From the IMG/VR virus record IMGVR_UViG_3300005340_000083, positions 1-21,784 of that record: 21,784 nt of DNA; one strand, written 5' to 3'. This stretch comes from a virus. The notes under the pieces are model-generated. The model had not been told where the DNA came from. It made no database searches and worked only from the letters and a program-made list of their open reading frames with translations. Positions 4,929-20,221 of the stretch are shown here, in pieces. A program made the translations under genes and the position numbers. Position 1 is the first letter of the stretch. The number at the start of each line of letters is the position of its first letter.

Positions 4929-5795
4929 GTGGCCGGCAAACCCGACCGGCACCTGAGCGTACGTGACGCTGCCATCACGCTCGGCGTGCCCGACACGACC
5001 GTGCGGCTGTGGCTCGACCGCGGCGACCTGGCCGGCGGCGGCTCGCCGCAGTGGGTGTCGGACCGGTCCGTGCGGGCCCGCCTGGCCAGCCGCGAACAGC
5101 GCCGCAGCGTCCGCCTCGCCGTCACCGTCGGCGCGTTGAAAGGCGGTGTGGGCAAGTCCACCACGGTGTGGGTGCTGGCCTGCCTGCTCGCCGCCGAAGG
5201 TGGCCGGGTCCTGGTCGTCGACGCCGACACCAACTCGCAGTCGCTGACCCAGTGGGCCAATCGGTACATCGCCGCCGGCGGGCAGCTCCCCTTCGAGGTG
5301 CTGCCCTGGGCCACGCATGACCTGATCGTCGGTGTGCGTCGCCGCCTCGAAGGGGTTGACCACCTGCTCATCGACACCGGCCCCGACGGGGGCGACCTGA
5401 CCCTGCTACAGGCCGCCCTCGCCGTAGCACCCATCCTGCTGGTGCCGCTCGCTCCCCGCGACATTGAGCTCAGTCGCCTGTGGGCCACCTTGGAAGCTGC
5501 CCGGCGAGGTGCCGCCCTCACCGGCCAGCCGGCCTACCCGCTCGTCCTGCTGAACCGGATCTCGTTGTCCAGGCTGGCGGAACGGGACCAGGCCCGCACC
5601 AACCTCGCCGCCGCCCCCGCCCTCCGCGACGTGCCGGTCGCCGACCCCGAAGTCCGCGACCTGGCCGTGTTTACCCGCATGACCGTCCCGCTCACCGTCG
5701 CCGGGTGCGGCGACTACGTCGGTGTGCTCGACGAACTGCGGGCCTTCGCTTCCCGGATCGAGGAGACCTCGTGGCCAAGCCGCCTGTCAGAGTGA
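4929..5795 (+). CDS. parA: ParA-type partition ATPase with N-terminal HTH, 288 aa
   Basis: Dynamic ATPase that would position plasmid or phage DNA on the nucleoid. An N-terminal helix-turn-helix resembling MerR/excisionase domains is at about residues 8-30 (LSVRDAAITLGVPDTTVRLWLDR). The deviant Walker A motif KGGVGKSTT is at 71-79. The A' motif VVDADTNSQS begins about 96, and the Walker B-like LLIDTGPDGGD at 146-156. The length fits plasmid ParA proteins that also act as repressors. The GTG start at 4929 has GAAGGA 7 bases upstream. The 3' end overlaps the next gene by 25 bases, giving a parA-parB type pair. The HTH and the inverted repeat in front of the gene suggest autoregulation. A role in chromosome-associated regulation rather than partition is less likely. 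Confidence 0.88.
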   Translation: MAGKPDRHLSVRDAAITLGVPDTTVRLWLDRGDLAGGGSPQWVSDRSVRARLASREQRRSVRLAVTVGALKGGVGKSTTVWVLACLLAAEGGRVLVVDADTNSQSLTQWANRYIAAGGQLPFEVLPWATHDLIVGVRRRLEGVDHLLIDTGPDGGDLTLLQAALAVAPILLVPLAPRDIELSRLWATLEAARRGAALTGQPAYPLVLLNRISLSRLAERDQARTNLAAAPALRDVPVADPEVRDLAVFTRMTVPLTVAGCGDYVGVLDELRAFASRIEETSWPSRLSE

Positions 5796-6106
5796 CCGAC
5801 CTGCCATCCCCGTTCGACGACCCGACGCCGCCCAACCGCCGCGACGGGGCCTCGGGCGGGCGCACGTACGCGCGCACGAATACCAGCAGCGGGCCGATAA
5901 CACAAGTCCCGGCCGTGGCCGCCAGAGATGTTCAAAACGCTGCGCTGGCCCTGGCCGCGACCTTGCGGCAGCTGGAGCAGCGGCGGACGGTGCTGGCGTT
6001 CGCGATCGCAACCGCCAGAGCAGCCGGTGTGCCCGACGCCACCATCAAAGCCCGGTTGGCTGTGGCCGAGCTGGACGACGACGAAATTGGCGACGCCCTG
6101 GCCTAA
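5771..6106 (+). CDS. small partner of ParA, possible centromere-binding protein, 111 aa
   Basis: The GTG at 5771 lies inside the end of parA, preceded by a GAGGAG ribosome binding site. Residues 1-45 are disordered and basic/Pro-rich (AKPPVRVTDLPSPFDDPTPPNRR). Residues about 53-80 form a long helix (AARDVQNAALALAATLRQLEQRRTVLAFAI) and about 81-108 a possible helical DNA-binding segment (ARAAGVPDATIKARLAVAELDDDEIGD). It does not show the canonical ParB motif. Its position and 25-base overlap make it a likely ParB/ParG-like partner; this is inferred from context. The final codons are part of the bidirectional terminator at 6091-6118. Confidence 0.7.
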   Translation: MAKPPVRVTDLPSPFDDPTPPNRRDGASGGRTYARTNTSSGPITQVPAVAARDVQNAALALAATLRQLEQRRTVLAFAIATARAAGVPDATIKARLAVAELDDDEIGDALA

Positions 6107-6118
6107 GCCAGGGCGTCG
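6091..6118. terminator. bidirectional terminator overlapping two stop codons
   Basis: CGACGCCCTGGC (6091-6102) and GCCAGGGCGTCG (6107-6118) form a perfect 12-bp stem with loop CTAA. The loop holds the TAA stop of the + strand gene and most of the TAG stop of the - strand gene, so the two convergent genes end in the same hairpin. As a consequence both proteins end in Asp-Ala-Leu-Ala. Confidence 0.8.
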
Positions 6119-6378
6119 ACGCCGGCCGGTGTCAGCCGTAGCAGACAACCATCCGGATAGGACGGGTGCGCATCGCGGCTGAGGGCCAGCAGGCCGTGGC
6201 GTCGCAGCAGCACCGTTGGGCCTGTAACACCACGGACCTGGACGCCGGCCTCGTCGACCAGCAGCGCGACCCCGCCATGGCGCCGCAGGGACAACCCGAT
6301 GGCCGGCACACACACGACCCGACCGTCTGCGGCCGCCTGCAACAGCAGCCGCCGCGTCGGCGTGATACGCAACCCCAT
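6103..6378 (-). CDS. small winged-helix-like protein, 91 aa
   Basis: The start is the ATG at 6378, 2 bases after the stop of the upstream - strand gene, so the two form an operon. The N-terminus MGLRITPTRRLLLQAAADGRVV resembles the first helices of a winged-helix domain. It is followed by hydrophobic strands (VPAIGLSLRRHGGVALLVDEAGVQV, GPTVLLRRHGLLAL) and ends with LLRLTPAGVDALA, a pattern (LTPAGxxAL) common at the wing of MarR/PadR-like regulators. No ribosome binding site is evident, consistent with translational coupling. It may be an accessory DNA-binding protein for the regulator encoded just before it. Family assignment is tentative. Confidence 0.6.
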   Translation of the reverse strand: MGLRITPTRRLLLQAAADGRVVCVPAIGLSLRRHGGVALLVDEAGVQVRGVTGPTVLLRRHGLLALSRDAHPSYPDGCLLRLTPAGVDALA

Positions 6379-6380
6379 CG

Positions 6381-6746
6381 CTAGCTGCCGGTCTGCCGGC
6401 GACCTGCGGTTGCGACTCTCTTCCGGCTGGGGGCCGGTTTCCGGACGGTGACCCGGACGGTCTGCTGCACGTTCAGAAGCGCGTTGTACTTGCGGACCGC
6501 GTTGGGCTGATGCATGCCCAGCACCTCGGCGATGGCGTCCCACACGATGCCCGGCGCGCGGCGACCGGCGTGGGGGGGACGGTTGCGGCACTCGGCCACC
6601 GCCGTGGTCACGGCGTCCTCCGCCTGGTCGCGGGCCTCCACGGCAGCCTTGAGATGTTCCAGGGCTTCCCGGTCCAGCCGCTCACCCTCGGTCTCATCCT
6701 CGCTGGGCGCTGCCGCCGCCTTGCTCGCTGTCCGCTTCGTAGTCAT
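6381..6746 (-). CDS. small HTH DNA-binding protein, candidate regulator of the early region, 121 aa
   Basis: The protein has a Lys/Ala-rich N-terminal tail, an acidic helix (about residues 20-55, EGERLDREALEHLKAAVEARDQAEDAVTTAVAECR) and a helix-turn-helix-like segment WDAIAEVLGMHQPNAVRKYNALL at about 73-95. A basic tail follows (VRKPAPSRKRVATAGRRQ). I chose ATG 6746: it sits 6 bases after a -10-like GACCAT, so the transcript is probably leaderless, whereas the longer frame would run back through the promoter and operator. Its own promoter carries the CTATC-N5-GATAG dyad shared with four other promoters. It is divergent from the ArdC-N operon. Autoregulating repressor or activator is inferred, not shown. 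Confidence 0.7.
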   Translation of the reverse strand: MTTKRTASKAAAAPSEDETEGERLDREALEHLKAAVEARDQAEDAVTTAVAECRNRPPHAGRRAPGIVWDAIAEVLGMHQPNAVRKYNALLNVQQTVRVTVRKPAPSRKRVATAGRRQTGS

Positions 6747-6752
6747 GCCCAG

Positions 6753-6781
6753 ATGGTCGCAGACTATCGCGCGGATAGCAA
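6753..6781 (-). promoter_or_regulatory. leaderless promoter of the HTH gene with CTATC-N5-GATAG operator
   Basis: Read on the - strand: -35 TTGCTA (6781-6776), dyad CTATC-CGCGC-GATAG (6778-6764), five bases TCTGC, a weak -10 GACCAT (6758-6753), six bases, then the ATG at 6746. The spacer is 17 bases. The dyad lies between the -35 and the -10, in exactly the register found at 8526, 9457 and 11242. The gap of six bases between -10 and ATG implies a leaderless mRNA. Confidence 0.65.
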
Positions 6782-6799
6782 TGGACGGGGGGTTGTGGG

Positions 6800-6822
6800 G
6801 CGTAAGGCGATTCGCCTTACGC
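6800..6822. promoter_or_regulatory. 23-bp perfect palindrome in the divergent control region
   Basis: Arms GCGTAAGGCGA (6800-6810) and TCGCCTTACGC (6812-6822) are exact inverse complements around a single T. The site lies between the divergent promoters of the HTH gene and the ArdC-N operon, just upstream of both -35 regions. It is unrelated in sequence to the CTATC-N5-GATAG dyads and so probably binds a second regulator. No downstream T-run and no adjacent gene end argue against a terminator. Confidence 0.7.
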
Positions 6823-6845
6823 GGCGACTCCACGAAGATCGCTTA

Positions 6846-6882
6846 TTGATATGAGTAGGATAGTCTGCTATCATGATGATAG
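6846..6882 (+). promoter_or_regulatory. promoter with tandem operators for the ArdC-N operon
   Basis: -35 TTGATA (6846-6851) and -10 TATCAT (6869-6874) are 17 bases apart. A degenerate first dyad ATATG-AGTAG-GATAG (6849-6863) lies in the spacer, followed by TCTGC and the -10. A perfect second dyad CTATC-ATGAT-GATAG (6868-6882) covers the -10 and start point, with centres 19 bp apart. The mRNA would have a leader of about 40 bases before the SD AGGAG (6910-6914) and ATG 6924. Confidence 0.7.
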
Positions 6883-6923
6883 GACAACAGGCCACATCCC
6901 TACCCACTCAGGAGCGACCCCCC

Positions 6924-7322
6924 ATGGCACGCATGACCCGCGAGCAACGCAGCAAGGCACTCGAAGAGCTGTCAGCCCGAGTGAAGGCCCGGATCGAAGA
7001 AATGGCCGACGAAGAACTCGCCGACTACGGCGAGATGTTCGAGGGCCGCTACAGCCCCAAGAACGTCGTCCTGATCCTGACCCAACGCCCGGACGCGACC
7101 GTGGTCCGCGGCTACGACCAGTGGAAGGCCGAGGGCCGCCAGGTCCGCAAGGGCGAACACGGCATCAAGATCCGCAAGGTGGTGTCGGGCCCCGACCGGA
7201 CCAACGCCGCCGGCGAGGTCACCGCCCAGGGCTGGCGGTCAATGATCTGGCTCACGGTGTTCGACATCGACCAGACCGACCCGATCACCGCTGACGCCGA
7301 CCTCGCCACCTCGGCGGCCTGA
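6924..7322 (+). CDS. ArdC-N-like ssDNA-binding antirestriction-type protein, 132 aa
   Basis: After an N-terminal helical segment (residues 1-36), residues 40-87 carry the ArdC N-terminal signature: YSPKNVVLILTQRPDAT, then GYDQWKAEGRQVRKGEHGIKI. In full-length ArdC this domain binds single-stranded DNA and is followed by a metallopeptidase-like domain. Here the protein ends at 132 residues, so only the N-terminal domain is present. ArdC proteins protect incoming plasmid DNA from restriction; the same role for an entering phage is inferred. ATG 6924 was chosen for its AGGAG at 6910-6914; an upstream in-frame ATG (6873) falls inside the operator. It is the first gene of an operon with the two genes that follow. 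Confidence 0.82.
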   Translation: MARMTREQRSKALEELSARVKARIEEMADEELADYGEMFEGRYSPKNVVLILTQRPDATVVRGYDQWKAEGRQVRKGEHGIKIRKVVSGPDRTNAAGEVTAQGWRSMIWLTVFDIDQTDPITADADLATSAA

Positions 7323-7325
7323 GCC

Positions 7326-7589
7326 ATGACCACCCCCACCGCCCCGTCCCGCACCGTTTGGCGCGGGATGGGGCGCTGCCCCTTCACCTGCACCGGCTGC
7401 GGCGGGACTTGGATCCTCGACCCGGACGCCGTCCAGACCACCGACGGCGTGCAGCGGCTGTGCTCCGGCTGCAACCAGATCCGCCTCGCCGCCCACCAGC
7501 CCCCGCCGTACGTCGTCAGCTTCACCTTCGGCGGCGACACCCCGCCACTTCTGCTGCTCGTCACCGCCACCCGGAAGGACCAATCGTGA
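7326..7589 (+). CDS. small zinc-finger-like protein, 87 aa
   Basis: Starting 3 bases after the ArdC-N stop, the protein shows C22-x2-C25 (CTGCGGTW) and C46-x2-C49 (LCSGCNQ), with an extra C18, as in a zinc ribbon. The C-terminal part is beta-rich (YVVSFTFGGDTPPLLLLVTATRK). It is coupled by a GTGA overlap to the ParB-like gene. A nucleic-acid binding or protein-bridging role is plausible; I do not recognise the family. Confidence 0.65.
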   Translation: MTTPTAPSRTVWRGMGRCPFTCTGCGGTWILDPDAVQTTDGVQRLCSGCNQIRLAAHQPPPYVVSFTFGGDTPPLLLLVTATRKDQS

Positions 7590-8521
7590 CCGCCACCAAC
7601 GCCACCGTGCAGAAGACCATCGCGACCTCGCGGATCGTGCCGGACCCTGAGCAGCCGCGGAAGCTGTTCGAGCAGGCCGGCCTGGACGAGTTGGCCGCGT
7701 CGATGCGTGAGCTCGGCCAGCTGCAGGCCATCACCGTCCGGTACGACCGGACCCGCCGGCTCTACATCATCGTCGCCGGCGAGCGCCGCTGGCGGGCCGC
7801 CAACATGGCAGGCCTGACCGAGATGTACGCCATGGTCCTGCAGCACGTCGACGACGAAGAGGCCTTCATCCGCTCGGTCGCGGAAAACGTTGGCCGGGTC
7901 GACATGACGCCGATCGAGGAGGCCCGCGCGTTCCAACGCCTCGTCGACGCCGGCTGGTCCACGGAGCAGATCGCCGCCCGCACCGGCGCATCGGTCGAGA
8001 AGGTGGGCTGGCGCATGGACCTGCTCACGCTGATCCCAGCCGCCATGGACGCCCTGTCGAAGGGTCACCTGCCGGTCGGCCTGGCCTGGTACGTGTCGCG
8101 GCTGGAGCCGACGGCGCAGAGCGTGTTCCTGGGCAAGTGGGGTCGGGGCGAGTTCCCCACCATCCGCGACGCTGAGGCGTTCGTGCAGGCCTGCCGGGCC
8201 AAGGCGTCGGAGCAGTTCGGCCTGTTCGGTATGGAAGAGCCAAGCATGGAGGAGCGGGCCCAGATCATCGCCACCCGCCAGCGTGTGGCGTCCAAAGTGG
8301 ACCAGTTGGCGAAGGCGGGGGAGATCCTGCATGAGTTGGGGCAGATGGATCCGGCCGAACTGGCCAAGGTCCTCGCCGGGGCCCACGGGGGAGTGGACGG
8401 ATACCAGGCCCGGATCTCCCACCTGCAGGGTGCTGCCGCCAAGGCGGCCGGTGTGCTGCGCAAGGCGAAGGCCATCGTGTCGGTGTCCGCTCTGGATCTG
8501 CAGGAAACTTCCGCAGCCTAA
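7586..8521 (+). CDS. ParB/Spo0J-family protein, 311 aa
   Basis: The GTG start at 7586 has GGAAGGA at 7572-7578 and overlaps the previous stop. The ParB N-terminal domain is clear: IVPDPEQPRKLFEQAGLDELAASMRELGQLQAITVR (17-52), the CTPase/nuclease-fold motif GERRWRA (65-71) and ENVGRVDMTPIEEARAF (100-116). A helix-turn-helix follows at about 124-146 (WSTEQIAARTGASVEKVGWRMDLL). The C-terminal third is helical (about 230-311). It is not next to parA but in the ArdC-N operon about 1.8 kb downstream. It may be the DNA-binding partner of the ParA, a transcription factor, or an antirestriction/replication helper of the ParB type common in phages and plasmids. Confidence 0.85.
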   Translation: MTATNATVQKTIATSRIVPDPEQPRKLFEQAGLDELAASMRELGQLQAITVRYDRTRRLYIIVAGERRWRAANMAGLTEMYAMVLQHVDDEEAFIRSVAENVGRVDMTPIEEARAFQRLVDAGWSTEQIAARTGASVEKVGWRMDLLTLIPAAMDALSKGHLPVGLAWYVSRLEPTAQSVFLGKWGRGEFPTIRDAEAFVQACRAKASEQFGLFGMEEPSMEERAQIIATRQRVASKVDQLAKAGEILHELGQMDPAELAKVLAGAHGGVDGYQARISHLQGAAAKAAGVLRKAKAIVSVSALDLQETSAA

Positions 8522-8525
8522 CCTA

Positions 8526-8562
8526 TTGCTATCACGATGGTAGCAGGATATGATCATGATAT
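8526..8562 (+). promoter_or_regulatory. leaderless promoter with tandem operators for the gene at 8561
   Basis: -35 TTGCTA (8526-8531), 17-base spacer, -10 TATGAT (8549-8554), six bases, then ATG 8561. The first dyad CTATC-ACGAT-GGTAG (8529-8543) fills the spacer. A second, degenerate dyad ATATG-ATCAT-GATAT (8548-8562) covers the -10 and the start codon, with centres 19 bp apart. The short -10 to ATG distance implies a leaderless mRNA, which fits the absence of a ribosome binding site. Confidence 0.75.
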
Positions 8563-8905
8563 GACAAACAACAACAGCCCAGCCCGCCGCGAGACCGCCA
8601 TCGCCGCCGCGTTCAACGTGCCCTTCGACCCGGCCGACTACAGCACCGAGTGGTCCCCGATGCAAAAGGCCGTCGCCCAGCTGATCACCGAGATCGCCTC
8701 CACGGAGCGGGTGGCCGCCGAACAGCTCGAGATGGCCGCCCGGACCGTGCAGCGGGCCGCCCAAGCCGTTCTCGACGCGAACGCAACGATCAACTCGATC
8801 GAGCCGCTGTGCATGACCCAGGCGAGCCACTACCTGACCAAGCTGGCCTTCCAGCGCCAGACGCTGGCCGTCCTCGTGGCCGGCCTGCGCCACACCGAAT
8901 CCTGA
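8561..8905 (+). CDS. hypothetical helical protein, 114 aa
   Basis: I chose ATG 8561 because it lies at the expected transcription start of a well-formed promoter; the longer in-frame start (8537) would lie within the operator. After a polar N-terminus (TNNNSPARRE), the protein is almost entirely helical: TAIAAAFNVPFDPADYSTEWSPMQKAVAQLITEIASTERV, then two long helices with regular hydrophobic spacing (AAEQLEMAARTVQRAAQAVLDANATI; ASHYLTKLAFQRQTLAVLVAGLRH). The last part may dimerise as a coiled coil. No recognised domain. Being the only gene directly under a leaderless operator-controlled promoter on the + strand, it is a possible additional early regulator. Confidence 0.65.
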   Translation: MTNNNSPARRETAIAAAFNVPFDPADYSTEWSPMQKAVAQLITEIASTERVAAEQLEMAARTVQRAAQAVLDANATINSIEPLCMTQASHYLTKLAFQRQTLAVLVAGLRHTES

Positions 8906-8945
8906 CCCCCCATCCACCACCCACCCTCGCCTTGAGGAGGCCGCC

Positions 8946-9383
8946 ATGCTCACCGCCACCACCGCCCTCTGCGGACACGCCGCCACCCCCACCACGGCCG
9001 GCTGCGACCCGTACGAGCGCCGCAACACGGTCGTGGACCACGTGGGCGATGTGGTTCTCTACATCGGCTGCGACGGCCTCCGGTACCTGTTCCGCGACGG
9101 TGTCGACGACGGGCTGCGCATGACCGCCGGCCCGGTGCCGGGCACGTGGGCGTTGACCCTGGCCCGCCACACCGAGGTCGAGCCGGGCCGGTGGGACATG
9201 GTCCTCGACGGGCAGCCGCTGTGCACCGGCGGGTACGCGGCCCGCAACGGCCGCCGCTACGTGGCCCGCCGCGGCCCGACCTCCCGCGCCTTCCTCGCCG
9301 CCGACACGTCCTACGGCCTGTTGGGCAAGGTGGCCCGCTGGTACCTGGCCCTGCCCGGCGAAGCGGACGACGGATGCGAGTGA
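8946..9383 (+). CDS. hypothetical protein, 145 aa
   Basis: ATG 8946 follows a strong GAGGAGG (8935-8941). The protein is beta-rich: NTVVDHVGDVVLYIGCDGLRYLFRDGVDDGLRM, then GTWALTLARHTEVEPGRWDMVLDGQPL and GRRYVARRGPTSRAFLAADTSYGLLGKVARWYLAL. Several Cys/His residues near the N-terminus (CGHAATPTTAGC) could bind metal. No membrane segment or catalytic motif stands out and I do not recognise the family. It is probably co-transcribed with the gene at 8561 and is followed by a strong terminator at 9398-9430. Confidence 0.65.
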   Translation: MLTATTALCGHAATPTTAGCDPYERRNTVVDHVGDVVLYIGCDGLRYLFRDGVDDGLRMTAGPVPGTWALTLARHTEVEPGRWDMVLDGQPLCTGGYAARNGRRYVARRGPTSRAFLAADTSYGLLGKVARWYLALPGEADDGCE

Positions 9384-9397
9384 ACATCACCTCCGCA

Positions 9398-9430
9398 GCG
9401 GGGGGCGGCCGGTTCCGGCCCGCCCCCCGC
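9398..9430 (+). terminator. strong GC-rich terminator hairpin
   Basis: GCGGGGGGCG (9398-9407) pairs exactly with CGCCCCCCGC (9421-9430). Inside it GCCGG (9408-9412) pairs with CCGGC (9415-9419) around TT, with one unpaired C. The 15-bp stem lies 14 bases after the stop at 9383 and is followed by TCCGTCCTTT. It separates the 8561-9383 unit from the next operator-controlled promoter. Confidence 0.85.
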
Positions 9431-9456
9431 TCCGTCCTTTCTGGACAGACAACCCC

Positions 9457-9493
9457 TGGCTATCCCTAGGGTAGCATGCTACGATGGTGATAG
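9457..9493 (+). promoter_or_regulatory. promoter with tandem operators for the 9532 operon
   Basis: -35 TGGCTA (9457-9462), 17-base spacer, -10 TACGAT (9480-9485). The first dyad CTATC-CCTAG-GGTAG (9460-9474) fills the spacer. The second dyad CTACG-ATGGT-GATAG (9479-9493) covers the -10 and start, with centres 19 bp apart. Five bases (CATGC) separate the first dyad from the -10, as in the other members. The leader continues to the AGAGGAGAG ribosome binding site and ATG 9532. Confidence 0.72.
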
Positions 9494-9531
9494 CACAAAG
9501 AGAAAACGACCCCCCTCCAGAGGAGAGCCCC

Positions 9532-9960
9532 ATGACCACCACCACCGCCCAGGACAGGGTCGAGTTCTACAACGACCTGCTCATCACCGCCATCGAGAAC
9601 GGCGGCTACGGCCAGTTCTGGACCCGCGAATACGACCCCTTCGAGGACAGCCCGTACGCGGTCATCGAATTCACCGACGCCGAAGGCACGCTGCACCGGG
9701 TCACCCCGGCCACCATGGCCCACGGCCTGGGCGTCATCACCAGCGCCGAACGCCGCGTCGACGAGAACCACCCCGACGACGGCCCGGTGCTACACAACGC
9801 CGCAACCGGCCAGCGCCTCTACATGGGCTCCCACCAGCGTGAGCGCATCATCCTCGCCGCCGACCCCGACAACGACGAATACGAAGCCGGCGACCTGGAC
9901 GTCATCGACGCCTTGGCCATCCTCGAATGCGCCCTGCTCGGCGCCGTCACCTACGCCTGA
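9532..9960 (+). CDS. hypothetical acidic protein, 142 aa
   Basis: ATG 9532 follows AGAGGAGAG; an in-frame ATG at 9484 is inside the operator and is rejected. The protein is acidic throughout (DRVEFYNDLLITAIENGGYGQFWTREYDPFEDSPYAVIEFTDAEGTLHRV, then ADPDNDEYEAGDLDVIDALAILECALLGAV). It has the look of the short, acidic, unassigned proteins found in actinobacterial plasmids and integrative elements, some of which mimic DNA. That comparison is an impression, not evidence of function. It is the first gene of a four-gene unit ending at 11264. Confidence 0.68.
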   Translation: MTTTTAQDRVEFYNDLLITAIENGGYGQFWTREYDPFEDSPYAVIEFTDAEGTLHRVTPATMAHGLGVITSAERRVDENHPDDGPVLHNAATGQRLYMGSHQRERIILAADPDNDEYEAGDLDVIDALAILECALLGAVTYA

Positions 9961-9975
9961 AAGGACCGACCAGCC

Positions 9976-10386
9976 ATGACCATCACCGACAACGCCGAGA
10001 TCCGGCCGGGGACTGTTGTCACCATCGACCAGGGCACCCGCACCTTCGAAATCCTCCGGATCGAGGAGGGCATGGCCAGGATCGCCCCCACCGACCCGGC
10101 CGACGACCGGGACGCCGACTGGGTATCCGTCGGCCGGCTGCATGTGGCACCTGAACCGGACCCGGTCCCGTTCACCGTGACCTGGACTGAGGTGTCGACC
10201 CACTCGGCGACCATGTCCTCCACCCGGCTGGCCGCCCTGCTCGGAATACCGGTGCAGACCCTCCTCGCCACCCAGCAGGAGGACATGGCCGGCCTCGGCG
10301 ATCTGGCCAACAGCCTGTGCGAGCTCGACGACGCCGGGCCCAACAACCTGACCCGAGAAGACATCACGATCACGAAAGAGGCATGA
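9976..10386 (+). CDS. hypothetical protein, 136 aa
   Basis: ATG 9976 has AAGGA 10 bases upstream. The N-terminal half looks like a small beta domain (AEIRPGTVVTIDQGTRTFEILRIEEGMARIAPTD). The C-terminal half has TVTWTEVSTHSATMSSTRLAALLGI, which resembles a strand followed by a helix found in some plasmid-borne unknown proteins (xVxWTEVxxHxaxxxxxxL). No catalytic residues are visible. Its stop overlaps the next ATG (ATGA), so it is co-translated with the gene at 10383. Confidence 0.65.
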   Translation: MTITDNAEIRPGTVVTIDQGTRTFEILRIEEGMARIAPTDPADDRDADWVSVGRLHVAPEPDPVPFTVTWTEVSTHSATMSSTRLAALLGIPVQTLLATQQEDMAGLGDLANSLCELDDAGPNNLTREDITITKEA

Positions 10387-10916
10387 CCACCATGGGCATG
10401 ACATCGATTGGGCTCAGTGCCCTCTACACCGCCGTCACCCCGCGCCGGGAAACCCCGGCGCGGGGCAACACGCCAGCCACCGTCAGCGTCGCCCTCGTCG
10501 ACCGAGGCAACCAATACTCGGTCGAGATCGAAGGCAGCGACAGCGGCGTCCGCGATGTTGTGGCACGGCTGGCCAAGGCGGCCGGCCTGGCCACCAACCA
10601 GCACCCTGGCGTACGGCTGTGGCTGGAACTGTCCACCGCCCACCTGCCCGCCAAGCTGCGCGAGTTCCACACCCTCAACCAGTACGCCGCCGTCCTGGCC
10701 TACGAGATGAACGACGGCGACTACAGCGCCTACCAGTCGATGCTGCTGTGGGTGCCCGACGACCCGGTCGAGTCGGCCAGCGTGTACGACGCCGAGGACC
10801 AGCCTCCCGCGGAGGTGCTGGCGCTCCAGCTGCACGCCCGCAAATTGGGCTGCGACTACATCCGCTTCGACCGCGACGCTGACACCGTCGACGGCCTACC
10901 AACCTTCGAGGGCTGA
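10383..10916 (+). CDS. hypothetical protein, possibly DUF5983-like C-terminus, 177 aa
   Basis: ATG 10383 overlaps the preceding stop; earlier in-frame sequence is out of register. Residues 1-35 are a Thr/Ser-rich stretch. The core carries LVDRGNQYSVEIEGSDSGVRDVVARLAKAAGL and a helical centre. The C-terminus LGCDYIRFDRDADTVDGLPTFEG resembles the end of DUF5983-like proteins carried by conjugative elements and plasmids (CxxxxFDRDAxxxxGLPTY). That assignment is from memory of the motif and is tentative. Function is unknown in that family. Confidence 0.62.
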   Translation: MTTMGMTSIGLSALYTAVTPRRETPARGNTPATVSVALVDRGNQYSVEIEGSDSGVRDVVARLAKAAGLATNQHPGVRLWLELSTAHLPAKLREFHTLNQYAAVLAYEMNDGDYSAYQSMLLWVPDDPVESASVYDAEDQPPAEVLALQLHARKLGCDYIRFDRDADTVDGLPTFEG

Positions 10917-10919
10917 CCG

Positions 10920-11264
10920 ATGGGAATGGACGCCCCCGTCCTCATAGCCGGCGCTAACGGCGGATACCGGCTCTACACCGTCGAGTACCTGCCCTTCGAC
11001 GCCCTGCCCGAGTACATGGACGGCGGCCCGCCGCTGGTCGTTATCGACCCGTGGGCGGTGTCGACATCGTTCCCGACTGATGACAGCGACGGGCCGCAGT
11101 ACACCCTGCACGCCCGCACGGTCGACATGGAGCCCCATCCGCTCAACGGCAGCCGGTACGCCACCCGCCGTGACGCCGACCGGGCCGTCTACGACGCTGG
11201 GCTGCTGGCCTTCATGGTCTATGAGCGCGAGGCCGCCGACCTTCCTATCACGGCGATAGCATGA
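10920..11264 (+). CDS. hypothetical protein, 114 aa
   Basis: ATG 10920 is 3 bases after the preceding stop with GAGGG upstream; ATG 10926 is an alternative start. The protein starts MGMDAPVLIAGANGGYRLYTVEYLPFDALPEYM, with a beta-rich core and a helix at the C-terminus (TRRDADRAVYDAGLLAFMVYEREA). No recognised motif. The last codons and the TGA lie within the operator and promoter at 11242-11278 of the next unit, so transcription of the following gene begins inside its 3' end. Confidence 0.6.
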   Translation: MGMDAPVLIAGANGGYRLYTVEYLPFDALPEYMDGGPPLVVIDPWAVSTSFPTDDSDGPQYTLHARTVDMEPHPLNGSRYATRRDADRAVYDAGLLAFMVYEREAADLPITAIA

Positions 11265-11278
11265 TATGATGATGGCAG
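11242..11278 (+). promoter_or_regulatory. promoter with operator for the DUF488 gene
   Basis: -35 TTCCTA (11242-11247), 17-base spacer, -10 TATGAT (11265-11270). The dyad CTATC-ACGGC-GATAG (11245-11259) fills the spacer, followed by five bases (CATGA) and the -10. A weak second dyad, ATATG-ATGAT-GGCAG (11264-11278), covers the start region in the same register as at the other promoters. The site overlaps the 3' end of the preceding gene. Confidence 0.7.
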
Positions 11279-11309
11279 CAACCATCCTCTACCTTGAAGG
11301 GCACCCACG

Positions 11310-11765
11310 TTGACCAGCCTCTTGCTCGCGACCTGCACCTACCAGGAGTTCCGGGCCGACATGGCCGGCGCCCCGGTCAGGTCCACCGTCGGCTACCCCC
11401 GCTTCTCCCTGACCTACACCCTTGCCGGCCACGCCCGGCTCATCGCCCCGCAGCGGCCGATGTTGAACTTGCCCAAGGATGCGTTCATGTTGTCGTACCG
11501 TCGGCTGCTCGACCGGGCCGGTGTGGACGCCATCCGCCAAGAGCTGATCAACATTGTTGGTGTCGGCAACCGGGCCGTCCTGCTGTGCTTCGACCGGCTC
11601 GACCGGCCAACCAAAGACGGCGGCGAAAACTGGTGCCACCGGACCATGTTCGCCGCCTGGTGGCAGGAGAAGACCGGCGAGGAGGTGCCCGAGTTGGGTG
11701 CCACGCCGTCGGCCCGCCCGCGGGTGCAGCTGCCGCAGTTGGTCCCGGAGTCCCTCTTCGACTGA
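11310..11765 (+). CDS. DUF488-family protein, 151 aa
   Basis: A TTG start at 11310 with GAAGG at 11296-11300 is required to keep the N-terminal LLLATCTYQEF strand and the following PVRSTVGYPRFSLTYTLAGHARLIAP segment. The C-terminal half has the DUF488 pattern: VLLCFDRL, then WCHRTMFAAWWQEKTGEEVPELG, with C109-H110-R111. In this family the conserved Cys, His and Arg cluster suggests a catalytic or metal site, but no reaction is established. It is transcribed alone from an operator-controlled promoter and followed by two hairpins. DUF488 proteins occur widely in phages and mobile elements; here regulation with the ArdC-N operon suggests an early or lysogenic role. Confidence 0.75.
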   Translation: MTSLLLATCTYQEFRADMAGAPVRSTVGYPRFSLTYTLAGHARLIAPQRPMLNLPKDAFMLSYRRLLDRAGVDAIRQELINIVGVGNRAVLLCFDRLDRPTKDGGENWCHRTMFAAWWQEKTGEEVPELGATPSARPRVQLPQLVPESLFD

Positions 11766-11769
11766 CGCT

Positions 11770-11819
11770 CTTTTGGATCAAAAGACGGCGGATAGTGCCT
11801 GACCTGGCACTATCCGCCG
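11770..11819 (+). terminator. tandem hairpins after the DUF488 gene
   Basis: A small palindrome CTTTTG-GAT-CAAAAG (11770-11784) is followed immediately by a perfect 14-bp stem, CGGCGGATAGTGCC (11786-11799) with GGCACTATCCGCCG (11806-11819), around a TGACCT loop. The larger hairpin begins 21 bases after the stop. It contains GATAG and CTATC, but in the inverted order and with a 14-base spacing unlike the promoter dyads. It is probably a terminator without a U-tract; binding by a regulator is the alternative. Confidence 0.65.
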
Positions 11820-11886
11820 CTAGCATTCGGTGGCACGAGGGGCTCGGGGGCGCGGCAGCCCGCCGCGCCGGGGGCGGGCGCCGGAG

Positions 11887-12045
11887 GTGTACTGGCTGCA
11901 CATCCCCCTTCCAGGGGGAAGGTCCACGTTCGAGGCGTGGCCGGCGCTCCACCACCCCAACGTCGAGGCGAAGCAGCAGCCCGGGGGGTGGGGGTTCGAT
12001 GTTCCACGGCAGTATTCCCGAACCGCTGCGGGCGATCATCTATGA
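11887..12045 (+). CDS. possible small gene in the gap before the methyltransferase, 52 aa
   Basis: Between 11820 and 11998 the DNA is very GC-rich and holds pairing segments (GGCGCGG with CCGCGCC near 11851-11870, and CCCCCT-TCC-AGGGGG near 11905-11920). Within it the frame starting at GTG 11887 (VYWLHIPLPGGRSTFEAWPALHHPNVEAKQQPGGWGFD) has nearly all G/C third positions until 11998, then loses this signal where it overlaps the methyltransferase gene. The start, and even the reality of this gene, are uncertain; it could be only a leader region with RNA structure. Confidence 0.3.
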   Translation: MYWLHIPLPGGRSTFEAWPALHHPNVEAKQQPGGWGFDVPRQYSRTAAGDHL

Positions 12046-13345
12046 GCATGCGGGGGCGTGGCCGGGGACGGACATCTACGTCGGCTGCTCCGGCAACTTC
12101 ACCATCGAACGGGTCCTGCACGCCCGCTTCGGCGCCGGCCGCACCGTCCACGGCTGCGACATCCAGGCCTACTCATGCGCGCTCGGCTGGTGGCTCGCCG
12201 GGCAGCCCCTCTCCTTCACCCTCCGCGAAGACCACGAGGACGCCCTCGGCTGGCTCAGCCCGTACCTGGACGGTGCTACGGGCACGTTGGCCACGCTGAT
12301 GCTGGGCACCCGGTTCCTGCAGTGGGTCGGCAAGGACGGGCCCTACTTCCGGCGGATGCTGGCCGCCACCCAAGATCAGTGGCCGACCATGCATGCCAAG
12401 ACGGTGGCCAAGTTGGAGGCGTTGACGCTGCGGCTGGGCTCCTTCTACGCCGGCGACGTCCGCGAATACCTGGACACCGTCGTGCCCGACGACGCGCCGG
12501 TGGTGATGTTCCCCCCGTTCTATGCGGGCGACTATACGAGCCAGTTCGCGTCGCTCGACCACGTCTTCGCCTGGCCGTCCCCCACGTACGGGGAATTGGA
12601 CGAGGACGCGAAGGAGGACATCATCGCCCGGGTCGCGCACCGACCCAGCTGGATGCTGGGCCTGCACGTCGAGCGCGACGAGATGCGCGAGCACCTGGCG
12701 GGGATTGTCCAGACCGCCAACCGGGGCCTGCCGATCTATGTGTACGCGGCGGCTGGGCCGCGCCGGATCGTCGCGCCGCGCCAGCAGACCCGGCCGGTGT
12801 TGATGCAGAAGTTGGGCCCCGACGACGAGCTCGGTGACCGGATGGCGTTGCACATCCTCGACGGGGGCCAGTTCGCGGCCCTGCGCTCGCAGTTCATGTC
12901 GAAGACGATCCTGCCCGGCTCGCCGCTGCTGGCCTGCGCTGTCTCAGTCGACGGGCATGTGATCGGCGCGTTCGCCTACAAGTCGCTGGCCGCATACTCG
13001 CCGACCTGCGGCTACCTGCTGTCGGACTTCCCCGTGTCGTGGACCAGGTACCGGCGCCTCGCCAAGCTGGTCGTGATGGCCGGCATCAGCCGGGAGGCGC
13101 GGCTACTCGTCGAACGGTCGGTGTCGAAACGGCTGACCGAATGGACGACGACAGCGTTCTCCGACAACCCGAACTCGGCCAAATACAGCCGGGGCATCCC
13201 GGGCAGCCGGCTGCTGAAACGGACCGAACCCGGCGGCGACGGCATCCACCGCTACCAGCTGCAGTACGGCGGCCCGCTCGGGGAGCTCACCCTCCCCGAG
13301 GCCCTCGCCTACTGGAAGACGAAACACGGAGCCGACCAGCGATGA
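11999..13345 (+). CDS. phage DNA methyltransferase-like protein (putative antirestriction adenine methyltransferase), 448 aa
   Basis: The N-terminus MFHGSIPEPLRAIIYEHAGAWPGTDIYVGCSGNFTIERVL contains an S-adenosylmethionine-binding motif I (VGCSGNFT, 28-35), followed by an acidic motif II residue in HGCDIQAYS (D54). MFPPFYAGDYTSQFA (170-184) provides the FPPF catalytic-type motif IV of amino-methyltransferases. The protein matches the layout of an actinophage family annotated as putative antirestriction adenine methyltransferase; that name is from recall. It would methylate phage DNA to block restriction. ATG 11999 follows a G-rich ribosome binding site. The stop overlaps the next gene (ATGA). 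Family members typically sit beside a ParB-N protein, as here, just before the terminase genes. Confidence 0.75.
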   Translation: MFHGSIPEPLRAIIYEHAGAWPGTDIYVGCSGNFTIERVLHARFGAGRTVHGCDIQAYSCALGWWLAGQPLSFTLREDHEDALGWLSPYLDGATGTLATLMLGTRFLQWVGKDGPYFRRMLAATQDQWPTMHAKTVAKLEALTLRLGSFYAGDVREYLDTVVPDDAPVVMFPPFYAGDYTSQFASLDHVFAWPSPTYGELDEDAKEDIIARVAHRPSWMLGLHVERDEMREHLAGIVQTANRGLPIYVYAAAGPRRIVAPRQQTRPVLMQKLGPDDELGDRMALHILDGGQFAALRSQFMSKTILPGSPLLACAVSVDGHVIGAFAYKSLAAYSPTCGYLLSDFPVSWTRYRRLAKLVVMAGISREARLLVERSVSKRLTEWTTTAFSDNPNSAKYSRGIPGSRLLKRTEPGGDGIHRYQLQYGGPLGELTLPEALAYWKTKHGADQR

Positions 13346-14283
13346 CGATGTTCACGCCCCGCCTCGTCCGGCGCGACCCGCGCCAGCTGACCCGGCTCGA
13401 GGTCAACGCCCGGTACATGCGCAAGGAGGAGTACGACCGGCTGGTCGCGAACGTGCGCCGCGACGGGTGTCTCACCTCCGTCCCGTTGATCTACGGCGGC
13501 GGGGACTACCCCGAAGGCCAGGAGCTGGTCATCTCGGGGAATCACCGCTGCGACGCCGCCGTCGACGCCGACCTGACCGAGGTCGACGCCATGCTCATCG
13601 ACACGCCCCTGACCCGGCAGCAGTTGGTGGCGTTGCAGCTGTCCCACAACTCGATCGCCGGCGAGGACGACCCGGCCACCCTGCGGCACCTGTACGCCGA
13701 GTTGGACGACATCGACTGGCGCTCCTACTCGGGTCTGGACGACAAAGAGCTCGAACTGCTCGCCCAGGTCAACGCGGAAGGCCTGTCAGAGGCGAACCTC
13801 GACTTCGCCACCGTTCAGGTCGTGTTCCTGCCGCCCGAATTGGTTACCGCACGGGAAGCCCTCGACGCCGCCCGTGCCGGGGCGGACGAAACGTGGCTGG
13901 CCGCCCGGGCCGACTACGACACGACGATGGAGGCGCTTCTCTCGGCCCACGCCGCCCACAAGGTCGGGAACATCGCGACCGCCCTCCACGTCGTCCTGAC
14001 CGTCTTTGAACGGCACCTCACCGACCTGCAGGACGGCTACCAGGACGCCGACGGCGAACCCATCCACAAGGGCGACGTCGGCCTGGAAACCGTGTTCGGC
14101 AGCCGCACCGTGCCAGCCGCCACCGCCGCGGTCATCAACCGGGCCGTCAAACGGGCCGCCGAGGTCGACGACATCCCCAAGGGTCCCGGCCACGGCTGGC
14201 AACTGTTGGAGAAGCTGGCCGAGGCCTACCTGGCCGGCCTCGACGCCGACCGGCAGGCCCGGCGCCGGGAGGAGCCCCAATGA
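13342..14283 (+). CDS. phage ParB N-terminal-domain protein, 313 aa
   Basis: ATG 13342 overlaps the methyltransferase stop. The N-terminal domain has the ParB/sulfiredoxin-like fold pattern LTRLEVNARYMRKEEYDRLVANVRRDGCLTSVPLI and the motif ELVISGNHRCDAA (61-73), equivalent to GERR. It then has PLTRQQLVALQLSHNSIAGEDDP (89-111), characteristic of phage versions located before the terminase. The C-terminal 150 residues are helical and charged. This family differs from the true ParB-like protein at 7586. Phage members are thought to act with DNA modification or packaging, possibly as nucleases, but the role is not settled. Confidence 0.8.
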   Translation: MTMFTPRLVRRDPRQLTRLEVNARYMRKEEYDRLVANVRRDGCLTSVPLIYGGGDYPEGQELVISGNHRCDAAVDADLTEVDAMLIDTPLTRQQLVALQLSHNSIAGEDDPATLRHLYAELDDIDWRSYSGLDDKELELLAQVNAEGLSEANLDFATVQVVFLPPELVTAREALDAARAGADETWLAARADYDTTMEALLSAHAAHKVGNIATALHVVLTVFERHLTDLQDGYQDADGEPIHKGDVGLETVFGSRTVPAATAAVINRAVKRAAEVDDIPKGPGHGWQLLEKLAEAYLAGLDADRQARRREEPQ

Positions 14284-14885
14284 CCGTCGGCCAGCTCCCC
14301 GTCCTCACCCTCGACCCGGACCTGGACCCATGGGACCGCCACGAGCCCAGGGAGACGACCCGGCGATACAGCCAGTTCCGCACCTACCTGGACGCCGGCC
14401 GGGGCCGGACCCTGCGCAAGGTTGCCGAAACCCTTGCACTCCACCCGGCCTACGTGCGCGCGGTGGCGGCCGCCTACCGGTGGGTGGAGCGGGCCGAAGC
14501 ATGGGACCGGCACCGCGACCAGATGCACGAGAAGGTTTGGCTCGAGGAGCGGCGCCGGGCCGCCGAGAACGACAGCAAGATCCTCGGCGCTGCCGTCGGG
14601 AAGATCGCCGACCGGCTCCGTTCCCTCCGGGCGGACGACCTGACCAACAGCGACCTCATTCGCCTGCTCGACGTGGTCCTCCGGCAGCGGCGGGCGCTGT
14701 TCGGTGACCCACAAACCATCGCCTTGACCGGCCTGGACGGCAGTCCCCTCACCGTCCAGTTGGCCGAATTCGCCGGCATGTCCATCGACCAGCGGCGCCA
14801 AACCATCTCCGGGCTGGCCGCCGACGTGCAGCGGCGCATCGCCGCCGCCAGAGGCGAAGAAGACGATGACCCTGGCCCCGACTAG
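14280..14885 (+). CDS. terS: terminase small subunit, 201 aa
   Basis: DNA-recognition subunit of the packaging motor. ATG 14280 overlaps the upstream stop. The N-terminal part carries a helix-turn-helix (TLRKVAETLALHPAYVRAVAAAYRWVERAEAWDRHRDQ, about 44-80), whose WxERAxAWDxHxD ending is characteristic of actinophage small terminases. A central helical oligomerisation region (about 90-145) follows, then a C-terminal segment likely to contact the large subunit. It lies directly before, and overlaps by 20 bases, the large-subunit gene. A role as transcription factor is unlikely given this context. Confidence 0.82.
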   Translation: MTVGQLPVLTLDPDLDPWDRHEPRETTRRYSQFRTYLDAGRGRTLRKVAETLALHPAYVRAVAAAYRWVERAEAWDRHRDQMHEKVWLEERRRAAENDSKILGAAVGKIADRLRSLRADDLTNSDLIRLLDVVLRQRRALFGDPQTIALTGLDGSPLTVQLAEFAGMSIDQRRQTISGLAADVQRRIAAARGEEDDDPGPD

Positions 14886-16470
14886 CCGGGACCCCACCGA
14901 CGCCGACGTGCACGACTACGCGGCCCTGACCGCTGCGAAACAGGCCCTCGCCCAGGACCTGAAACGGGGCCCGGCCACGATGGCCCTCGGGCTGGATCCC
15001 GAGTACCGGATGCGGCCCCACCTGCGGGTCATCGCCGACGCCATAGCCGGTGTGCTGGCCGGCTGGTATGACCGGCTGCTGATCATCACGCCGCCCCAGG
15101 TCGGCAAGTCGACCTTGGTGGGGGAGTGGGGGCCGTTCTGGTGGTTGACCTGCCGGCCCCGCGACGACATCGTCATCGCCTCGTACGCCGCGGACCTGGC
15201 CGAGACCAGGTCGAAGGGCATCCAGCAGCACATCGCCGACTACGGCGCCGAGTACGGGCTGATGATGAAACCGGGCTCCGAGTCGGTCCACGACTGGCGG
15301 CTGACCTCGAACGGGCACCTCCGCGCGGTCGGGGTAGGGGGCGGGTTGTCCGGTTTCCCCGCGAACCTGATCGTGGTCGACGACCCCCACGCTGACCGGG
15401 CCGCGGCCGAGTCGCCGCGCATCCGCAACGGCGTGCACGACTGGTGGTCATCCACCGCGTCGACCCGGCTGCAGCCCGACATGGGCGCCGTCATCGCGAT
15501 CATGACCCGGTGGCATGAGGACGACTTCGCCGGGCGCCGGCTCAAGGAGGAGGGCCGGCTTGAGACGGGCGGGAGGTGGAAGGTGGTCCACCTGCCAGCC
15601 TTCGCCGACCCGAAGTTCGGCAAGGACCCGCTCGGTCGCGACCCGGGCCAGCCGCTGACCCACCCGAAGATCCCCACCCGGGACAGGGCCCGGCTGGTCG
15701 CCTGGTGGCAGGAGAAGAAACGCACGTCGATGGTCCGGGACTGGCACTCCCTCTACCAGGGCGACCCGCAACCCGCGGCCGGTGCGCTCGTATCCGAAGA
15801 GCTGCTGCGCCTCATCCGCGACACGGTCACCGACGTCGAACCGCAACGCATCGCCGTGGCGGTCGACCCGTCCGGCGGCGGCCGCGACACCGCCGGCATC
15901 GTCGGCGGGTTCCTGGGCGAAGACGGCCGGCTGTGGATCACCGACGACCGGTCCGGGGTCATGTCGTCTGACGCCTGGTCGCTGGCGGCATGCCGTCTCG
16001 CGTACGAGATCGGCGCCGCCTCGTTCGTGGTGGAAACCAACTACGGCGGCGACATGGCCGCCCTGGTGTTGCGGACCGCGTGGAAGACCCTGCAGGACGG
16101 GCACGTCGACCCGGCCACCGGGGAACGGTGGTCCATCCCCGCCGACGAGTTGTGTCCGTTGGTGCGGGTGGTGCGGGCGAAGCAGGGCAAGCTGCTGCGG
16201 GCTGAGCCGATCGCCCAGCAGATGATCCTTGACCGGGTCCGGCTGTACGGGATCTTCCCCGACCTGGAGCGGGAGTGGGCCACCTGGCAGCCCTCCGACC
16301 CGATGTCACCCGGCCGGATCGACGCCTCCGTGTACCTGGCCTACCACCTGCTGCCGATCCCGTCTACGGGGGTCCAGTTCGCCACCCCGTCCGGGTCGAT
16401 GCCGTCGAGCTCGGCCTCGCCGCTGGCCGGGGCCGGGGCCGGCACGACGGGCCTGTCACCCCTGGCCTGA
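14866..16470 (+). CDS. terL: terminase large subunit, 534 aa
   Basis: Packaging ATPase and headful/cos nuclease. The ATPase domain shows Walker A TPPQVGKST (75-83), Walker B LIVVDDPH (168-175) and the coupling segment IMTRWHEDD (212-220). The RNase H-like nuclease domain has the acidic triad D334 (AVDPSGGGRDTAG), E390 (FVVETNYGGD) and D486 (GRIDASVYLAYHLL). Length and motif order match actinophage large terminases. The last 30 residues are Ser/Gly/Ala-rich and variable. The start overlaps the end of terS by 20 bases. No nuclease or ATPase key residue is missing, so the gene appears functional. Confidence 0.95.
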   Translation: MTLAPTSRDPTDADVHDYAALTAAKQALAQDLKRGPATMALGLDPEYRMRPHLRVIADAIAGVLAGWYDRLLIITPPQVGKSTLVGEWGPFWWLTCRPRDDIVIASYAADLAETRSKGIQQHIADYGAEYGLMMKPGSESVHDWRLTSNGHLRAVGVGGGLSGFPANLIVVDDPHADRAAAESPRIRNGVHDWWSSTASTRLQPDMGAVIAIMTRWHEDDFAGRRLKEEGRLETGGRWKVVHLPAFADPKFGKDPLGRDPGQPLTHPKIPTRDRARLVAWWQEKKRTSMVRDWHSLYQGDPQPAAGALVSEELLRLIRDTVTDVEPQRIAVAVDPSGGGRDTAGIVGGFLGEDGRLWITDDRSGVMSSDAWSLAACRLAYEIGAASFVVETNYGGDMAALVLRTAWKTLQDGHVDPATGERWSIPADELCPLVRVVRAKQGKLLRAEPIAQQMILDRVRLYGIFPDLEREWATWQPSDPMSPGRIDASVYLAYHLLPIPSTGVQFATPSGSMPSSSASPLAGAGAGTTGLSPLA

Positions 16471-16477
16471 CCTGCGG

Positions 16478-16544
16478 GAAGCCTTGCGGTGGAACCCCCC
16501 CAACGCCGGAAGATTTGCGGTGATTCGCCCCTATAGTCAGGACC
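16478..16544 (+). promoter_or_regulatory. possible leaderless promoter and duplicated element before the DUF1360 gene
   Basis: A -10-like TATAGT (16532-16537) lies 7 bases before ATG 16545. A direct repeat GAAG-N2-TTGCGGTG occurs at 16478-16491 and 16509-16522, 31 bp apart; the second copy lies just upstream of the -10. No good -35 at 17 bases is seen. This could be an activator-dependent promoter. It lacks the CTATC-N5-GATAG dyads of the early region. Confidence 0.4.
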
Positions 16545-16907
16545 ATGTCGGTATGGGTGTGGGGCGTGTACGCCCTGGCAGTCGCACGCCTCACAGGCCT
16601 GATCACCGCCGACGAGATCAGCCGCCCGGCCCGGGACTGGGTCATCGCGAACCTCCCGCCGTACCCGGTGTTCATCCCGGTCGAGTACCTGCTGACCTGC
16701 CCCTGGTGCGTGTCCATTTGGGTCGGTGCCGCAACCGTCCTCATGGCGTGGCGGTGGGGTGGGGCGCCCTGGCTCCTGGGCGTGGCCCTCGTATTGGCCA
16801 TGAGCCAGATTGCCGGCATGCTCGCACCGCTGGGTCGGGCGGCCCCCGACGACGACGTCGACCTGGCGGCCACCGGCGACGGTGACCGGGCCGCGGTGAC
16901 GCCGTGA
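16545..16907 (+). CDS. DUF1360-like membrane protein, 120 aa
   Basis: Residues about 4-20 and about 57-95 form hydrophobic segments, and the loop between them has LLTCPWCVSIWVG with a CPWC motif (52-55), the hallmark of DUF1360-like phage and bacterial membrane proteins. The C-terminal tail is acidic (DDDVDLAATGDGDRA). In actinophages such a gene is often found among the head genes, between terminase and portal, as here. Its function is unknown; proposed roles are membrane-associated and unproven. ATG 16545 is probably read from a leaderless start; the stop overlaps the portal start (GTGA). Confidence 0.75.
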   Translation: MSVWVWGVYALAVARLTGLITADEISRPARDWVIANLPPYPVFIPVEYLLTCPWCVSIWVGAATVLMAWRWGGAPWLLGVALVLAMSQIAGMLAPLGRAAPDDDVDLAATGDGDRAAVTP

Positions 16908-18907: not shown

Positions 18908-19101
18908 GCACCCCGTGGGAGGTGCTCGCAGCCGTCGCGCGACGCAACGGCCTTGACGCACTGGTGCTGTGCGGCCACATCACCACCGCCCATGACGTCG
19001 ACCCGAACGGGCCGGAATGGGCTGGGCAGTGTGAGGCGGCCGCCATCTGCCTCCTCGACGTCGACCGCGCCCACCGGGACCTGGCCGAGGTGACCTCGTG
19101 A
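18904..19101 (+). CDS. hypothetical protein, 65 aa
   Basis: ATG 18904 overlaps the portal stop (ATGA) and the end overlaps the next gene (GTGA). The protein has two short helices flanking a Cys/His-containing stretch (ALVLCGHITTAHDVDPNGPEWAGQCEAAAICLLDVDRAHRDLAE). C-x-H and downstream Cys residues could bind metal. I do not recognise the family; it is likely a minor head-cluster gene. Confidence 0.6.
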   Translation: MSTPWEVLAAVARRNGLDALVLCGHITTAHDVDPNGPEWAGQCEAAAICLLDVDRAHRDLAEVTS

Positions 19102-19364
19102 GCGCCCGGATCCACCGCTACCAGGTGCCCGTCGACGACCAGGTCCACGTCATCGAACTCAACGGCACCCCCGCCCACGTCGGCTGCCGCGACCCGGAGG
19201 TGGTCGAGTTCTGGGCCATCCACCGCGACGGGGTGCCGCTGCGCCCGTACCGGTTCACGGTGGCCGGCACCGGCCACGTCCTGCCCGAAGGGTGCCGGGT
19301 GTGGGGCACCGCCACCGCACCCGGCGGCACCTACGTGTGGCACCTGATCGAGGTGGCCGCATGA
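19098..19364 (+). CDS. DUF7352-like small protein, 88 aa
   Basis: GTG 19098 overlaps the preceding stop. The sequence IHRYQVPVDDQVHVIELNGTPAHVGCRDPEVVEFWAIHRDGVPLRPYRFTVAGTGHVLPEGCRVWGTATAPGGTYVWHLIEV matches the layout of a small beta-rich protein family seen in actinophages and annotated as DUF7352 (YxVPVDD, VEFW, VxGTGxxLP, VWHLxE). The function of that family is unknown. It is coupled to the MuF gene by an ATGA overlap. The name is from memory of the motif pattern. Confidence 0.68.
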   Translation: MSARIHRYQVPVDDQVHVIELNGTPAHVGCRDPEVVEFWAIHRDGVPLRPYRFTVAGTGHVLPEGCRVWGTATAPGGTYVWHLIEVAA

Positions 19365-20209: not shown

Positions 20210-20221
20210 GGAGCACAACTG

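Follow-up and report, generated by a model that had tools for sequence, protein, structure and literature searches.

A probable shared operator at five promoters of an actinobacterial phage, with a small helix-turn-helix protein as its likely regulator

Introduction

Why would five promoters of one phage carry the same short inverted repeat, each time in one register with the -35 and -10 elements, and which protein would read it? The stretch that raises this question, called the window here, is the whole 21,784 base pair (bp) phage record IMGVR_UViG_3300005340_000083, in which Pfam and PHROG matches identify a tyrosine integrase, ParA, ParB and an ArdC-like protein; the host group of this soil virus is the actinobacteria. 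We consider it probable that the five sites are operators of a single phage regulator, most likely a helix-turn-helix (HTH) protein of 121 amino acids, which would act as an autoregulated repressor of the early operons. We found no record of this pair of HTH protein and operator, which appears to form a repressor circuit not described before, though its general type is familiar. It would bring together a probable immunity repressor and the whole set of its operators in a phage lineage of high-GC soil actinobacteria whose control proteins match no named family.

Five promoters with one element

The sequence-only reading of this DNA had quoted five 29-mers and four second dyads. All are exact, and in the four plus strand sites the centres of the two dyads lie 19 bp apart. 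The sites are as follows.

6753-6781, minus strand: leftward promoter and operator of the HTH gene, TTG CTATC CGCGC GATAG TCTGC GACCAT
6846-6882, plus strand: rightward promoter and operator of the operon with the ArdC-like and ParB genes, two dyads, the second (6868-6882) perfect
8526-8562, plus strand: promoter and operator of open reading frame (ORF) 8561-8905, matched in the sigma-70 scan
9457-9493, plus strand: promoter and operator, with dyads, of the operon headed by ORF 9532-9960
11242-11278, plus strand: promoter and operator, with dyads, ahead of ORF 11310-11765

In the rightward promoters of the window the half-sites begin at 0, +10, +19 and +29 and are alternately inverted; with spacings of 10, 9 and 10 bp they lie on about one face of the helix, an arrangement that would fit two adjacent dimers. 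The 9457 promoter in full is a single imperfect palindrome of 36 bp (9459-9494). The sites have the form of sigma-70 promoters (TTGnnn, 17 nucleotides (nt), TAnnnT, and a start point 7 nt downstream), with some departures: the -35 triplet is weak at two of the five (TGG and TTC), the leftward -10 (GACCAT) is weak, the first half of the 6846 site is degenerate (ATATG), and the upstream ORF 10920-11264 runs with its 3' end into the 11245 site. When positions 6700-11400 were scanned for generic sigma-70 promoters, exactly two came out, 6846-6874 and 8526-8554, with 0.4 expected. Three genes have their ATG exactly 7 nt downstream of the final base of the -10: the HTH gene of the window (ATG at 6746, from the 6753-6781 promoter), ORF 8561-8905 (ATG at 8561) and the HTH gene of the relative phiM2, described below. 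This is the pattern of leaderless actinobacterial transcripts, and these three start codons support the start points.

The genome extends beyond the window. The sibling contig IMGVR_UViG_3300025936_000031 (51,205 bp), which was the sole return when the HTH protein or ParB served as single-protein query against viral contigs, overlaps window positions 6674-21784 with two mismatches, and the resulting composite of 57,878 bp (a genome of at least 57.9 kilobases (kb)) was used for the motif exclusivity scans. Exact CTATC-N5-GRTAG occurs at five places in the window, and the same five alone remained after the sibling contig had been scanned; with up to one mismatch the composite still holds five, against 0.1 in first-order random sequence. 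A dyad matrix, descriptive only in that it scores its own training sites, gave the nine dyads from which it was built 15.7-26.9 and the best other site 12.0, and on random genomes the best score per genome averaged 11.2 with a maximum of 18.7. The pattern [AC]TAT-N16-TANNAT, on both strands of the 57.9 kb, found only the four plus strand sites and, overlapping the 8529 site, one match in reverse; the frequency of TANNAT itself is 1.7e-4 per position. The proposal of a coordinated regulon had been tied beforehand to the motif lying at promoters only, and it is supported, the operator standing at five promoters and at no other place in 57.9 kb.

A relative with the same element

Relatives did not come from the motif itself. 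The operator patterns used alone as query found none; looser versions, run over IMG/VR and GTDB genomes, yielded isolated chance matches only, of which nearly all fell in AT-rich or mid-GC DNA and not one in a relative; and when the HTH motif GxxQPNAVRK was searched for as a DNA pattern in IMG/VR, the 26 contigs returned were unrelated and mostly had one recurrent frame. A ParB query against plasmids returned phiM2 of Streptomonospora litoralis M2 and pSITFR-21c of Streptomyces sp. ITFR-21.

In the homologous region phiM2, a prophage or episome, has the same gene order as the window, namely a leftward HTH gene and then rightward genes that include ParB, an ArdC-like gene, the homologue of ORF 11310, a methyltransferase-like gene, a ParB-nuclease gene and terminase homologues. 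The intergenic gaps hold seven rightward promoters of the form TTG[CA]TAT[CT]-N15-TATGAT-N3-GATATAA, and the leftward HTH promoter reads TCG CTATC-N15-TATGAT CGA GATATG, in the same register as the others. A scan of the whole 90 kb of phiM2 with one mismatch allowed found ten places: these eight promoters and two overlapping sites between genes near 77.2 kb, which together form a near-perfect palindrome of 34 bp. Sites had been expected at the early promoters of relatives, and phiM2 has eight of them with the same element.

When all fifteen sites are aligned, three blocks stay constant: TTG.TATC (-35), TATGAT (-10) and GATA[TG] (start point). All five window sites also have the inner GRTAG half, which phiM2 lacks, and for this reason we take the shared operator to be the outer inverted pair, formed by [CA]TATC (-35) and GATA[TG] (start point). 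The operator first described as CTATC-N5-GRTAG therefore holds for the window but not as the conserved unit.

Relatives with another putative regulator and another operator

A ParB profile extended the search to seven relatives in all (pSITFR-21c and loci L152-L157) with a full-length ParB of 46-50% identity. We call these class II, as distinct from the class I operators of the window and phiM2. In all seven the strand opposite to ParB encodes, upstream of it, a small HTH protein of another kind, related to that of pSITFR-21c; these proteins have 89-200 amino acids, with the HTH single or duplicated, and are modelled as a confident helix-turn-helix (mean predicted local distance difference test score (pLDDT) 80). 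The loci scanned for operators (L126 and L152-L157, 21-25 kb each) contain TAGTG-N6-CACTA in 4-10 copies per locus, 55 in total, against 0-0.3 expected at random, and in seven of seven the start codon of the HTH gene has a copy 11 bp ahead of it. The TATC/GATA element was found in none of these seven loci beyond chance level. A de novo repeat-family search of other terminase relatives had returned mostly coding repeats, and an element in L112, TAGTGACTACCCACTA, led to class II.

If the HTH protein is the regulator, an operator lies on its own promoter in the window (6753-6781), in phiM2 and in all seven class II relatives. The operator changes with the type of HTH protein while ParB, 46-52% identical in eight relatives, stays, which makes the HTH gene 6381-6746 a likely autoregulated repressor gene; its product is the best candidate for the regulator, and we regard that assignment as likely. 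Two unrelated repressor/operator pairs thus stand in gene layouts that are nearly identical. This is a natural swap, which allows direct tests of how immunity specificity changes, of the membership of the conserved early regulon and of whether a stress sigma factor reads one of the groups.

The promoters differ between the classes as well. The element CGG[AT]AC-N17/18-GTT[GA] precedes 35 of the 55 class II operators at a fixed distance, GTT starting 8 nt before TAGTG; the plus strand of the seven loci has 35 occurrences in all, as many as stand at operators, and the minus strand one. The element is absent from the window and from the stretches of phiM2 that were read, and three matches are scattered over the sibling contig. 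The SigR promoter, GGAAT-N18-GTT, is similar, yet has GGAAT where this element has GGWAC (PMC2375139). This suggests that the promoter type may have been exchanged along with the repressor. Tentatively, and as a possibility that we hold with less confidence than the regulator assignment, we speculate that in one actinobacterial temperate phage lineage, with the same ParB, phrog_2450 gene and virion-entry cassette, the HTH gene, operator and promoter type have been exchanged as one module: sigma-70 promoters with TATC/GATA in class I, and in the others SigR-like GGWAC-N17/18-GTT with TAGTG-N6-CACTA at the start point. If this is true, lytic development in class II would be tied to a stress sigma factor of the host, and the swap of a single cassette would change immunity type and induction signal together.

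Ahead of 31 of the 55 class II operators, at a distance of up to about 110 bp, stands a further box, TGACCTGCGA(A/T)TTTTC-like, noted in L152, L157 and L126; it is also found upstream of the first early promoter of phiM2 (L125, near 10300).

The candidate regulator and its proposed action

The protein to which the covariation points is the following.

6381-6746, minus strand: proposed regulator, 121 amino acids, predicted helix-turn-helix (WDAIAEVLGMHQPNAVRKY), the HTH being common with the phiM2 protein

Encoded at the same locus, the HTH proteins of the window and phiM2 have WxxIAxxLGMxQPNAVRK in common, with 14 of 23 residues identical (61%), and little else; the helix GM[HA]QPNAVRK[YF] is thus found in both phages that share the operator. 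The model of the window protein predicts helices at 64-76 and 80-102, with low confidence, and for the phiM2 protein the only family match was Myb_DNA-binding, at 25.0 bits against a cut-off of 24.4. Regulators with a single or a tandem-duplicated HTH occur in both operator classes (L125, which is phiM2, at 9811-10224; L126 at 8497-9048; L157 at 5015-5614; all on the minus strand), suggesting that internal duplication may have occurred repeatedly.

The genes that the operators would control are these.

6924-7322, plus strand: ArdC-N-domain protein (antirestriction-like), first gene of the rightward operon, PF08401 (E-value 1.1e-8)
7586-8521, plus strand: ParB/Spo0J-family protein with HTH_ParB domain, third gene of the first rightward operon, PF02195 and PF17762
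8561-8905, plus strand: regulon gene, leaderless
9532-9960, plus strand: regulon gene, phrog_2355
11310-11765, plus strand: regulon gene, phrog_2450, with a homologue in eight of eight relatives (all nine genomes compared)

In our proposal the HTH protein would bind the half-sites [CA]TATC and GATA[TG], at the rightward promoters filling four half-sites on roughly one face of 34 bp from the -35 to the start point. Judging from position only, bound protein would cover the -35, the -10 and +1 and so keep RNA polymerase off. The rightward sites would in this way shut the early operons (the ArdC-like/ParB operon, 8561, 9532 onward and 11310 onward), and the leftward site would limit synthesis of the regulator itself; in the prophage, early lytic or replicative genes would stay silent until the regulator is lost. 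We infer binding, repression and a role in lysogeny for the HTH protein. The phrog_2450 gene is the prime candidate for a conserved early regulon member. In eight of nine genomes ORF 11310 or its homologue has an operator no more than about 510 bp upstream (window 11245; phiM2 18505; L126 14011; L152 13315; L153 12808; L155 11948; L156 12147; L157 12060), L154 having none close; gene starts are unannotated in the IMG/VR loci, and there the distances run to the aligned part.

Several points weigh against this proposal. The TATC/GATA operator class rests on two independent phages plus the sibling contig. The HTH match between them is short (23-25 amino acids, E-value 3.4e-4 for the whole phiM2 record), the two proteins are unequal in length, and that of phiM2 has two HTH units. 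The window protein had no match in Pfam, PHROG or PDB, and its model is weak (mean pLDDT 64). Finally, ParB lies inside the regulon, a strange place for it in a prophage maintained by ParABS as a plasmid, should this be one.

Competing explanations

The alternative that survives best, though we think it unlikely, accepts the HTH protein as regulator but makes it a KorA-like global regulator of a plasmid-like state, or a Cro-like activator or modulator, rather than the immunity repressor. The regulon does include plasmid-type functions, ParB and the ArdC-like protein, and phiM2 has other repressor-like genes, namely one for an HTH protein at 86.5 kb, divergent to the gene beside it, and a LacI-like gene at 88.2 kb. 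Activation is nevertheless disfavoured by sites that lie over the -35, -10 and +1, and a divergent autoregulated gene heading the early region occupies the usual place of an immunity repressor.

An explanation that we regard as improbable assigns the sites to the ParB of 7586-8521, which would use them in the manner of KorB as operators or centromere sites, combining partition with repression of many promoters. This idea has a precedent in KorB of RK2, a ParB protein active in both partition and repression, whose operator is 13 bp long (PMC5577506); the ParB gene, with its HTH_ParB domain, lies in the first operon and is kept in all relatives, and the 15 bp size of the dyad is compatible with an operator of ParB/KorB type. 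The operator does not follow ParB, however, which is 46-52% identical across genomes with unrelated operators. In the ParB HTH, phiM2 (GKTVAYITWR) looks nearer to pSITFR-21c (GKSPAYVGWR) than to the window (GASVEKVGWR), yet the phiM2 operator is that of the window; and the fixed -35/-10 register, with a site on the HTH gene's own promoter, suits a repressor better than ParB.

Least probable of all is that there is no operator and the shared letters are a phage promoter consensus spread by duplication of promoter cassettes: the conserved blocks do overlap the -35 (TTGMTA) and -10 (TATGAT) and the inner dyad is not conserved in phiM2, but sigma-70 has no such preference at the position of GATA[TG], which is downstream of the -10 and an inverted copy of the TATC at the -35, the phiM2 site near 77 kb is a palindrome almost throughout, and the class II dyad stands just downstream of an unrelated promoter type.

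Comparison with known systems

A HTH repressor with dispersed operators, which is the reading we prefer, has several counterparts. The actinophage phiC31 has a repressor with conserved inverted-repeat operators near many early promoters, and its repressor and repeat sequence probably differ from those of the window. The general design of dispersed operators is known from P1 C1, from the stoperators of cluster A mycobacteriophages and from KorA/KorB of RK2, and none of these matches the window in operator sequence or regulator family.

As in P1, where C1 has 22 operators with an asymmetric consensus of 17 bp, one autoregulated repressor would serve many operators dispersed over phage promoters (PMC8546580); unlike the asymmetric C1 operators, those described here have symmetric half-sites in a fixed register on the -35, -10 and +1. 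Cluster A phages (L5, Bxb1 and Trixie) have up to about 30 asymmetric stoperators of 13 bp, mostly in one orientation relative to transcription, and they too are actinobacterial temperate phages in which operator and repressor diverge together and a site lies at the repressor gene (PMC6550527). Their repressor belongs to a different family and their sites are not fixed on the -35 and -10, whereas the sites in the window are inverted-repeat half-sites locked to those elements and do not fit the stoperator pattern. RK2 resembles the window in having plasmid- or partition-linked regulators with repeated operators at many promoters (PMC5577506); it differs in operator sequence (TTTAGCSGCTAAA; GTTTAGCTAAAC), and in the phages compared here ParB does not track the operator.

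Neighbouring genes and minor features

Three further genes of the window are listed here.

14866-16470: terminase-like gene, matching annotated phage terminases
6106-6402 (reading frame 6106-6591), minus strand: second gene of the leftward operon, small, winged-helix-like by eye, no family match
4929-5792: ParA-like protein with an N-terminal HTH-like segment

No homologue of the second leftward gene was detected in phiM2 or in three class II records. The window ParA had no match in a search of the phage collection and no homologue in four relatives that share ParB (phiM2, pSITFR-21c and two further records), so that ParA and ParB do not travel together; phiM2 itself has ParB and the HTH protein, with homologues of ParA and the second leftward gene undetected, a point in favour of the HTH protein as the regulator.

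Paired dyads in locus L048 (7256 and 7279) bear a chance resemblance to those of the window: they are arms of a longer inverted repeat, CTTTCGGTCCGATAG...CTATCGGACAGAAAG (7256-7293), ahead of a PadR-like gene, and this repeat is probably the operator of the PadR-like regulator. In the window, a strong GC-rich hairpin at 9394-9434, between ORF 8946-9383 and the 9457 promoter, is a probable transcription end separating the operons. Between the divergent promoters, at 6800-6822, lies a perfect palindrome of 23 bp, GCGTAAGGCGATTCGCCTTACGC, present as a single copy in the 57.9 kb and possibly a parS site or another operator.

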